Origin: Apostichopus japonicus
Taxonomy: Eukaryota; Echinodermata; Holothuroidea; Aspidochirotida; Stichopodidae
Direction: 5' to 3'
Assembly (NCBI RefSeq): GCF_037975245.1
Contig: NC_092564.1
Coordinates: 15,708,984 to 15,772,983 of the forward strand
Length of the DNA: 64,000 nucleotides
Below, piece after piece: positions 17,101-19,495 of the stretch. How positions within the stretch are numbered: the stretch's first letter is position 1; each line of letters begins with the position of its first letter. Position numbers and translations under genes: made by a program. The notes below the pieces were generated by a model. That model was given only the letters and a program-made list of their open reading frames with translations. It searched no databases and was not told where the DNA came from.

Positions 17101-19495
17101 GTTCTTTCTTTAGCGCTTAGAGGCTTTTGCATTTTGCGCTTTATAAATTCCTATTATTATTATTATTATTTTTGTTATTATGACTATCGAATTTCCAGCG
17201 GGTTTAACATTATTGTGTGTGTGTGTATTTAAAGGTTGTTTTTTTTTTTGGTATTAAAAGAAATGGTGTTAAAGTTACTTTCAGTCCAAGGTATTATGTA
17301 AAGCGATCCAATGTTTGTCTGAAGAAGGGGATTGTGTCCCCCAATCGAAGATCTGTTCAGAAGTCTCTTTGTAAAAAACTGAGAAATACTTTCCAGACTT
17401 TTCACACTTTTCAGGCTGAATTATTTTAGTTTGATGCAGACTTTTAGTAGGAGTATACAAAAGCATGCGTATATACAAGTACAAGTAGAATTCCCGCTGG
17501 TTATATGAGTACGAGTATATCAATGCAAGGTTCTAAATGTGTGTAAAGGTATACTTAATTTTACACTATATAGTGTATACTATAGATGCCAAGATGCGTA
17601 TAGTACGAATAGGAGTACAGACTGGATTAGGGCGATTACGAGTACAAATCCATGAAGTGAACAAGACATCTATGCTTATACGAGTATATGGACTCTTTGA
17701 GGAATACCCACCGAAACATTCATTCTAAATAGGTCTATAGATTCTTTAGTTTTCAGTTCGGAAATATGAACAAAATTCTACTATGTGACATATCCAGTAT
17801 GGTTTGACGTTGTTGTTGTTGTTCTCGTCCACGTCGTCACCTTTTGCCTCCTTTTACATTTGACATTTAATAGGTCAATCTTCGAGATAAATGGAACAGG
17901 ACCGGGGTGGCTTGGAGCTGGTCATGCAGAGGAAATTCCTTTTGTCTTTGGTTATCCGTTTCTACCCGAGTTGGATGGTTACCATGGACCAATGACAGAC
18001 GAGGAGAAAGAACTATCAGTGAAATTGATTAAATACTGGACACACTTTGCCTGGACAGGGTATATCTTTAATCTACATGCATAAATAATATTATACGTCA
18101 CTAAAGATACTATGGGTATACTATGAGTTATTATTTTTTTTTAATCTATATTTTGCAGTAAAACTGGAATCGTGAACATAAACATGTAGCATACACTATG
18201 TAAATATAAATAGATAAATATATAGATAAATAACGCAACAAAAATCATCCAAACCAAGCAGCATGTCGATGTTGAAAGTAAAAGCTTATCAGTTGCGTTA
18301 TTCTTTCGGCGAATCGTGGATGACGTCACAACGGCCACTATTACATGTATACAGAAACGAATCATCGAACTACAAAGTAACAAATAGATCCTAAAAATCT
18401 ATATACGTGGAAGCTGTACATCTGTGGATCACACAAAATTGTGATTCCGATTATTGTTTTCGGTTAGTTGGGGGAGAAGGTGAGGAGGGAGGGAACATGG
18501 AGGAGTGGAGATGGGGAGGGTAGCAGGTGGACAAAATCCCTGTACGATGAAATTGTCAATTTCCTTGAAAATTAAGTATCGTATACTGATTAATATAGGT
18601 GAACGTTCGTGCGTGAAAGTTATATGAAACATAAAGGTGGACACTAAAGAACATGGAATAGTCCAAACTTACAATTGATCACAGAACATTAATTGATGTA
18701 TATATTAATTCATGTATCGTGTATATATTAATGATCAATTATAAATAAGGTCTTTAAAATACTAATTATGATTTTCATTTTTGTTTTCTATGTCAGCCAT
18801 CCAAGTTCTATCATGATCAATGGTAATATAACTGATGGGATGAACATGACAATGGATTACATGGACCCTGCTGAAGGTATGGGCATGGAGGATACCATGG
18901 TAACGAACGTCACCATGGAGATGATACACGAGTTGGCATGGTTACCATTTACCGTCCCAGAGTTATATTTCAAAGAACTTGGCCTCATGTCACACATCAA
19001 GAGGGGATTGAAGTCCGATGAATGCGCATTTTGGGACGGCTTTAAGCTGGACCTACAGAGCTACTTGGGTGAGTGTGGTATAATTACAGGTACATGCTAT
19101 ATTTTCAATGAGGTGGGTGGGGTGAGGGCAGGGACGGGGGAAGGTTACAAAGATGGTATGGTCAGAAATAGCACTTAGAGAATTTTTCCTATTTCTATTG
19201 TGCTCAGTCAAAAGGCTTAATAAATTATGTAGACAAGTATTTTAAAAAAACATTGCACCTCCACCCTTCCTCCTTGCGCACGTCACTGATACTGTTTTTA
19301 CTATATAAGTGCTATTACTCTATAGTAACGAAATTCATTCGGAGTCCCTTAAAGCTATTAACTTATTTTCTTGTCCTAGTTTCTATGGACCAGACTGAGT
19401 TAGAATGGAGAGAAGAATTTGAGGATTGGCAAGATGACCTGGACGACTGGAGAATGTCTTACCAGAAATACACACAAAGTCCTTACTGTGGATAA
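8113..19495 (+). CDS. Cholinesterase-like carboxylesterase (gene A), 11 coding exons
   Basis: Secreted alpha/beta-hydrolase of the carboxylesterase type-B/cholinesterase family, 634 residues. Exons: 8113-8277, 11179-11370, 11730-11889, 12641-12718, 13291-13409, 14385-14555, 15772-15975, 16435-16676, 17874-18059, 18797-19068, 19380-19495. Every join keeps frame (intron phases 0,0,1,1,0,0,0,2,2,1). The N-terminus is a hydrophobic signal peptide. Visible are the oxyanion stretch HGGGYTTGS, nucleophile Ser213 in GESAG, acid Glu335 in FNRDEGS, and His461 in [13 protein letters not shown], so the triad is intact. Cysteines pair as in cholinesterases (EDC loop, NCS...VEC loop, FSCP...DEC). The last exon matches the AChE T-peptide spacing (W-F-W-W-Y-Y-C). 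Exon 10 has a Met-rich insert. Donors after exons 5 (GTTAGA) and 9 (GTATAT) are weak but are supported by gene B. The substrate is unknown; the choline-site Trp is not apparent. Confidence 0.9.
8939..9187 (+). mobile_element. tRNA-derived SINE copy 2 (nearly full length)
   Basis: This copy gives the family structure in order. It starts with a tRNA-like head with A and B boxes (about 8941-9004). The body contains the GACTGACTTCGGTCAGC stem, then a 3' region GAGTTCCTGCTTGCAGGAGG, and it ends in a CATA tetranucleotide repeat (about 9163-9184). It sits in intron 1 of gene A directly before the LINE fragment. It is a Pol III-type SINE rather than a functional tRNA gene, because the acceptor and anticodon arms do not fold into a cloverleaf. 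Confidence 0.85.
9188..11150 (+). pseudogene. Broken non-LTR retrotransposon ORF2 (CR1/L2/Jockey-like), truncated at both ends
   Basis: Reverse transcriptase remains are read across frameshifts. Pre-RT region near 9224-9460 ([12 protein letters not shown], then [13 protein letters not shown]). RT from about 9690 ([20 protein letters not shown]). After an inserted hAT element (9781-10154) it continues [35 protein letters not shown] and [11 protein letters not shown] later frame holds the GVPQ-type motif and [11 protein letters not shown]-terminal RT homology runs to 11100 and a shifted ATEKLIH to about 11150. Frameshifts near 10550-10800 and missing ends show it is dead. It lies in intron 1 of gene A and stops roughly 30 bp before the exon 2 acceptor. 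Confidence 0.85.
9781..10154. mobile_element. hAT-type MITE (374 bp) inside the LINE reverse transcriptase
   Basis: Termini CAGTGGCGGAGC and GCTCCGCCACTG are exact inverted repeats. They are flanked by a perfect 8-bp target duplication ACTGCAGT (9773-9780 and 10155-10162), the hAT hallmark. It has no transposase. Conceptual removal of the element plus one duplication rejoins the RT reading frame as [11 protein letters not shown], which independently confirms the boundaries. Related copies: 44489-44874 (opposite orientation, near full length) and 29337-29473 (one end only). Confidence 0.93.
11959..12071. repeat. AT dinucleotide microsatellite
   Basis: A long alternating TA tract with a few TG interruptions lies in intron 3 of gene A. 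Shorter TA tracts occur near 918, 16043, 20360, 25530 and 28284. Confidence 0.95.
14721..15355. mobile_element. hAT-type MITE (635 bp) with internal tandem repeats
   Basis: Inverted ends CAGGGGCGTAGCGA (14721) and TCGCTACGCCCCTG (ends 15355) are flanked by a perfect 8-bp duplication TCACGAAC (14713-14720 and 15356-15363). It has no coding capacity. The interior is built of about three tandem units of roughly 137 bp. It lies in intron 6 of gene A. Confidence 0.93.
14765..15176. repeat. Three tandem ~137-bp units inside the hAT MITE
   Basis: Units begin at 14765, 14902 and 15039 (AATTTGATTTGCCGACGG) and the fourth start at 15177 diverges after seven bases. Each unit carries a G-rich and a C-rich block that could pair (GGGGGAGGGG with CCCCTCCCC). 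Confidence 0.9.
15479..15650. repeat. Diverged interspersed repeat, copy 2
   Basis: Counterpart of 5524-5720, same orientation. It lies in intron 6 of gene A, just 3' of the hAT element. Its family is unknown to me. Confidence 0.6.
16905..17175 (+). mobile_element. LINE 3'-end fragment (CR1/L2/Jockey-like)
   Basis: The sequence reads as the typical ORF2 C-terminus of these LINEs ([16 protein letters not shown], then [11 protein letters not shown]) followed by a stop. A short 3' UTR (TTTTGCGCTTTATAAATTCC) and a TTA trinucleotide tail at 17151-17172 follow. It is severely 5'-truncated. It lies in intron 8 of gene A, sense orientation. Confidence 0.85.

Follow-up and report, generated by a model that had tools for sequence, protein, structure and literature searches.

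The C-terminal T-peptide of acetylcholinesterase (AChE) is usually viewed as a device that places the enzyme at synapses. The regularly spaced Trp residues of this tail contact prolines in the solved WAT/PRAD complex. According to excerpts from PMC5943944 and PMC8518539, known WAT helices bundle four subunits round an antiparallel proline-rich helix, which is provided by ColQ, PRiMA or, in the case of butyrylcholinesterase (BChE), by lamellipodin peptides. The T-peptide itself is already known; what is new here, going by the papers searched, is its spread over a tandem-expanded family of esterases that lack the choline site. A T-peptide family on such esterases was not described among the matches listed from the open-licence literature, as judged from titles and the openings of abstracts.

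The window considered here is a stretch of 64,000 nucleotides (positions 15,708,984-15,772,983 of NC_092564.1, termed C4) in the 671.6 Mb assembly GCF_037975245.1 of the holothurian Apostichopus japonicus. Gene A, on the forward strand of the window, was modeled as 11 exons that form a single open frame of 634 amino acids, with GT/AG boundaries at all ten introns. Exon 1 (8113-8277) supplies the start codon and a hydrophobic N-terminus that reads by eye as a putative signal peptide, and exon 2 (11179-11370) encodes a shortened C67-C94 loop without Trp84. The oxyanion-hole GGG lies in exon 3 (11730-11889), which is followed in the gene model by exon 4 (12641-12718), and the catalytic Ser is found within the FGESAGG motif of exon 5 (13291-13409). 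Exon 6 (14385-14555) carries the C254-C265 pair, exon 7 (15772-15975) the catalytic Glu (FNRDEGS), exon 8 (16435-16676) the equivalent of C402, and exon 9 (17874-18059) the catalytic His (GAGHAEE). The catalytic domain ends in exon 10 (18797-19068), which includes the equivalent of C521 in the sequence ECAFW and has a phase 1 end; the T exon, exon 11 (19380-19495, stop codon included), comes next. An additional 34-nt exon at 15435-15468 was rejected because it breaks the frame, and a search between exons 10 and 11 for an alternative exon of the GPI type (H) gave no candidate under the filters used. Intron 1 contains a reverse transcriptase fragment (10025-10630, forward strand; PF00078, 30.6 bits), and tandem repeats of a unit of ∼138 bases were seen by eye in intron 6 (14760-15180, forward strand).

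The 38-residue tail encoded by exon 11 of gene A is a T-peptide (WAT helix); the intron splits the first codon of this exon (G at 19068 plus TT). The first-pass annotation had read the tail, counting from its first Trp, as W1, F5, W8, L12, W15, Y19, Y22 and C28, and the translation of the exon reproduces this register exactly. It had also equated the register with that of the AChE T-peptide, which is borne out by a gap-free alignment with AChE tails and by a search of the exon 11 peptide against the PDB, where the top match is the AChE WAT peptide 1vzj (E 0.008), which we take to be the human AChE peptide. Alignment of A with the AChE chain 6euc, presumably that of Torpedo, proceeds without gaps from the Cys preceding the intron (CVFW / CAFW) through the WAT segment to the C-terminal Cys. 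The last Cys of the catalytic domain is separated from W1 by 24 residues both in A and in 6euc. The tail of A occupies a final exon of its own, as it does in vertebrates. Gene A thus has the three regularly spaced Trp residues, the aromatic stripe and the C-terminal Cys by which a WAT domain is recognized.

The profile for this domain (PF08674, AChE_tetra) matches the exon 11 peptide of A with 24.1 bits (E 3.1e-5) and the tail peptide of gene B, the tandem paralogue described below, with 24.0 bits (E 3.2e-5), both short of the curated cut-off of 25 bits; within the full proteins the scores are 17.9 bits for A and 15.2 bits for B. The profile check that had been suggested for gene A therefore returned a real match with a score below the cut-off, and because the match is real but sub-threshold, absence of a PF08674 hit needs care when it is used as an argument against a T-peptide. 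For the peptides of exon 11 from A and B, AlphaFold2 predicts a single helix spanning residues 5-33 with a mean pLDDT of 88.6. In both peptides all seven stripe positions are hydrophobic, as against one of the 15 other positions, a stripe as sharp as that of the known AChE and BChE tails (2 of 15 other positions hydrophobic). The hydrophobic moment, however, does not exceed that of shuffled sequences: among 5000 shuffles, 766 reached the value of the A tail and 580 that of the B tail, which is not significant, and on these counts we rejected it as proof of amphipathicity. Known tails do no better by this measure (1793 of 5000 shuffles for human AChE and 1980 for AChE1 of A. japonicus itself). 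A full-length structure model of A, built from a two-row alignment, was unusable (mean pLDDT 28.3).

The body that precedes the tail is a member of the carboxylesterase family (PF00135; 443.5 bits for A and 451.7 bits for B). The best PDB match of A is BChE (4tpk, 324 bits); AChE (6euc) scores 310 bits and neuroligin-4X 295 bits. As read from the alignment, and in Torpedo numbering, A retains Ser200, Glu327, His440, Gly117-119, Glu199 and Trp233, together with Cys 67, 94, 254, 265, 402 and 521, the cysteines of three internal disulfides including C402-C521. The C67-C94 loop of A, shorter by seven residues, has Tyr aligned to Trp84, and Asp72 falls in a gap. Further substitutions affect Phe330 (Val), Phe288 (Asn), Phe290 (Ile), Tyr334 (Phe), Tyr121 (Thr), Tyr130 (Phe) and Tyr442 (Glu); a Phe aligns to Trp432 beside an insertion, so that this assignment is uncertain. 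The alignment thus agrees with the description of gene A as a paralogue without clear choline-site features, as W84, D72, F330, Y334, F288, F290 and Y442 all appear not to be kept. Vertebrate AChE-T and BChE-T (PF08674; 1vzj, 6i2t) resemble A in the seven core positions and the Cys of the tail, in the placement of the tail on a separate last exon and in its helical character, the tail of A being predicted as one helix. They differ in that the tail of A is strongly acidic, its body is missing Trp84 together with a large part of the choline site, and its genome holds several tandem copies. Carboxylesterases and neuroligins share the fold family of A, but the C402-C521 cysteine pair of cholinesterases has its counterpart in A, and neuroligin-4X, unlike A, lacks the catalytic Ser. 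To our knowledge, other carboxylesterases and neuroligins carry no T-peptide.

The genome of A. japonicus also encodes cholinesterases of its own. Two loci on C10, AChE1 and AChE2, have T exons and a body of ∼1.5 kb in a single open frame, and both keep Trp84, Asp72 and Phe330; AChE2 was assigned from its site residues and the tree. AChE1 aligns to an AChE structure with 498 bits, compared with a best score of 324 bits for gene A. Like A, these genes place the T exon after the CAFW segment with the same donor position and phase; they are distinct from A in their choline-site residues, single-frame body, W8-W16 spacing (see below) and position in the tree. That tree comprised 13 rows and 470 of 516 columns, was rooted for drawing only, and included four partial rows (NLGN4X, L047, the C4 19.5 gene and G3); L048 was dropped because its fragment overlapped too little. 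AChE1 and AChE2 group with AChE and BChE chains at a support of 99/99. A, B, the C11 gene and the C4 19.5 gene group at 100/99 and then with G3 and the C4 2.5 gene at 82/87, outside the cholinesterase clade, so that the phylogeny with cholinesterases leaves both A and B beyond the 99/99 node.

To calibrate the profile scores, we scanned the assembly in six frames with PF08674 (E up to 10), which gives counts that are lower bounds. At least 24 matches were found, 11 of them above the cut-off of 25, and these 11 belong to a set of 20 WAT exons linked to esterases that is made up of the top 19 matches (down to 20.9 bits) and the weak match L042 (16.6 bits). Four of the 24 matches (L039, L040, L041 and L043) were discarded as chance. 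The scan scores of A (22.5 bits) and B (22.6 bits) lie inside the range in which all matches are genuine WAT exons. When the tail of B served as query, 19 matches were obtained, 18 of which are among the 20 exons (L002 and L042 were missed); the 19th, at C11:1737981, is a possible further partial WAT exon that may be degenerate. For 15 of the 20 WAT exons, a motif scan located the last catalytic exon no more than 1.5 kb upstream, and esterase exon matches adjoin the remaining five (L023, L024, L030, L038 and L042) on the same strand. At least 20 esterase-linked WAT exons thus exist in one genome, of which 18 belong to genes other than the two cholinesterases; such a tail characterizes the family and is no coincidence. 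Four esterase genes with near-identical WAT exons (L025, L028, L029 and L031) lie ∼19-22 kb apart at C11:1766518-1830409, with the partial match at 1737981 as a potential fifth, degenerate member, in what looks like a recent tandem expansion.

Three Trp residues and a C-terminal Cys occur in all 20 exons, with the third Trp at position 15 or 16. When positions after 8 are shifted by one in the exons with the longer spacing, position 5 is Phe in 18 (Tyr and Ile in one each), position 12 is Leu in 17 (Met in two, Val in one), position 19 is Phe in 18 (Tyr and His in one each) and position 22 is Tyr in 18 (Ser in two). Twelve exons, those of A and B among them, share their 7-7 Trp spacing with vertebrates; the other eight (L001, L002, L003, L023, L024, L030, L038 and L042) have a spacing of 7-8 (W8-W16), and both cholinesterases of the animal belong to this second group. 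Tail net charge ranges from -2 to -10 over the 20 exons, with -8 for A and -7 for B compared with 0 for human AChE. The values for AChE1 (-2) and AChE2 (-5) fall within this range, and charge is therefore no clean divider between the tails of cholinesterases and the others. Beyond C10, complete or partial bodies were available for reading from six WAT genes (A, B, the C11 gene, the C4 19.5 gene, G3 and the C4 2.5 gene). Trp84 is absent from all four bodies that cover its loop, the other two being fragments outside it. Applied to the other 12 WAT genes, the term non-cholinergic extrapolates from the six bodies that were read.

The intron that separates body and tail is equally regular. The 16 genes checked, namely those with a readable last catalytic exon (A and B, both cholinesterases and 12 more), all carry a phase 1 GT donor, in each case exactly 46 bases beyond the point where the codon of the conserved Cys begins; the C4 2.5 gene has Asn at this codon and an unchanged donor position. 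The T intron of vertebrates is also phase 1. Acceptors were sought in phase 1 only, and their phase is consequently no independent test. The T-peptide tail is common to two clades, the cholinesterases and the relatives of A and B, and the simplest reading of these sequences would be a single origin of the tail before the two clades split, which is favored by the identical donor site in both. It is also possible that the tail reached both clades through exon shuffling into the same site. Combes et al., as cited in an excerpt from PMC3045457, described conserved C-terminal splice sites in insect, nematode and vertebrate AChE genes and took them as a sign of exon shuffling.

The window contains a second T-peptide (WAT) exon, that of gene B, which lies in tandem with its paralogue A on the same strand. 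Exons 1-10 of B span 23536-31624 with intron phases as in A, and exon 11 lies at 33041-33159. B has Asp in place of the catalytic Glu (E327D) and Gly in place of Glu199 (E199G), as if catalysis were altered. Asp is also found at 327 in G3 and in the C4 2.5 gene, and a near copy of B on C11 (L044) keeps Glu at both positions. A scan of B for an exon of the GPI type (H) gave two weak candidates, at 32342 and 32470. Elsewhere in the window, a long open frame at 36916-38049 (reverse strand) encodes CS and TPR domains and presumably resembles DNAAF4/DYX1C1, and the reverse strand at 61117-61605 gives a weak match to a cyclic-nucleotide-binding domain (23.3 bits against a cut-off of 27.5).

Comparison of exon 11 between A and B yields 20.8 nonsynonymous changes over 90.0 sites with synonymous sites saturated; since nonsynonymous changes are few against such a background, the WAT exon has been under long-term constraint as coding sequence. 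No such constraint is evident among recent copies, as the changes are all nonsynonymous both among the C11 copies (0 synonymous; 1, 3 and 2 nonsynonymous) and between L026 and L027 (0 synonymous, 2 nonsynonymous) and as dN/dS is 0.44-0.51 for the WAT exon of B against those on C11. L033-L035 differ at synonymous sites only. The recent copies that offer no synonymous changes for comparison, the possibly degenerate partial match at C11:1737981 and the two substitutions in the active site of B could be taken to mean that exon 11 is a relic of a decaying gene or is not spliced in. We regard this as very improbable for gene A, given its ten canonical introns and single open frame, the long-term constraint between A and B and the recurrence of the same exon in 20 places. 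Alternatively, gene A could be a fast-evolving AChE or BChE with an ordinary T tail that still acts on choline esters, as its top PDB matches (4tpk and 6euc), its cholinesterase disulfide cysteines and the T tail itself might suggest. This, too, is improbable, if less so: the alignment shows neither W84, D72, F330 and Y442 nor an aromatic acyl pocket in A, neuroligin-4X nearly equals AChE in its match to A, A falls outside the cholinesterase clade, and the genome possesses in AChE1 a gene with a T exon that is by far the better match to AChE, in addition to AChE2.

We infer instead that gene A probably encodes a secreted, non-cholinergic carboxylesterase that is probably a tetramer assembled round a proline-rich partner. 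The enzyme would be a cholinesterase-like carboxylesterase with an intact catalytic triad and no choline-binding site, and its substrate would be something other than acetylcholine. The last exon is a T-peptide exon that would have been passed down along with the intron that precedes it, and the 38-residue tail would fold as one helix with its Trp and aromatic stripe at 1, 5, 8, 12, 15, 19 and 22. The stripe would pack four subunits of A round the proline-rich helix of a partner protein, with Cys28 cross-linking the subunits or the partner. Provided that the helix forms, assembly as a tetramer on a proline-rich partner is the likeliest role of the tail and one that we hold with fair confidence. 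The helix could instead mediate a homo-oligomer or dimer through a coiled coil and a Cys-Cys bond, with no proline-rich partner, as would be consistent with a terminal Cys in every one of the 20 exons and with tail charges that depart from the neutral tail of human AChE. We consider this unlikely, as the regularly spaced Trp residues, which make the proline contacts in WAT/PRAD assemblies, are invariant throughout the 20. If gene A does assemble on a proline-rich protein, that partner may, speculatively, be a basic protein distinct from the cholinergic anchor; the strongly acidic tail of A suggests a basic partner, but the idea of a separate one is weakened by the tail of AChE2, which is also acidic (-5).

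More tentatively, the WAT segment might be a general module for oligomerization and anchoring in this lineage, with as many as 18 non-cholinergic esterases, most of them clustered in tandem, using acidic helices on basic proline-rich partners of their own as a second WAT/PRAD system, and with a tail and intron that predate the split from cholinesterases; we view this picture as a whole as rather doubtful. The label of T-peptide or of "acetylcholinesterase-like" protein need not imply choline hydrolysis. The acidic natural variants of the WAT segment, with 7-7 or 7-8 spacing, provide material for testing which features determine the choice of partner. If these esterases do tetramerize, the WAT module would be older and more general than its use at the synapse.
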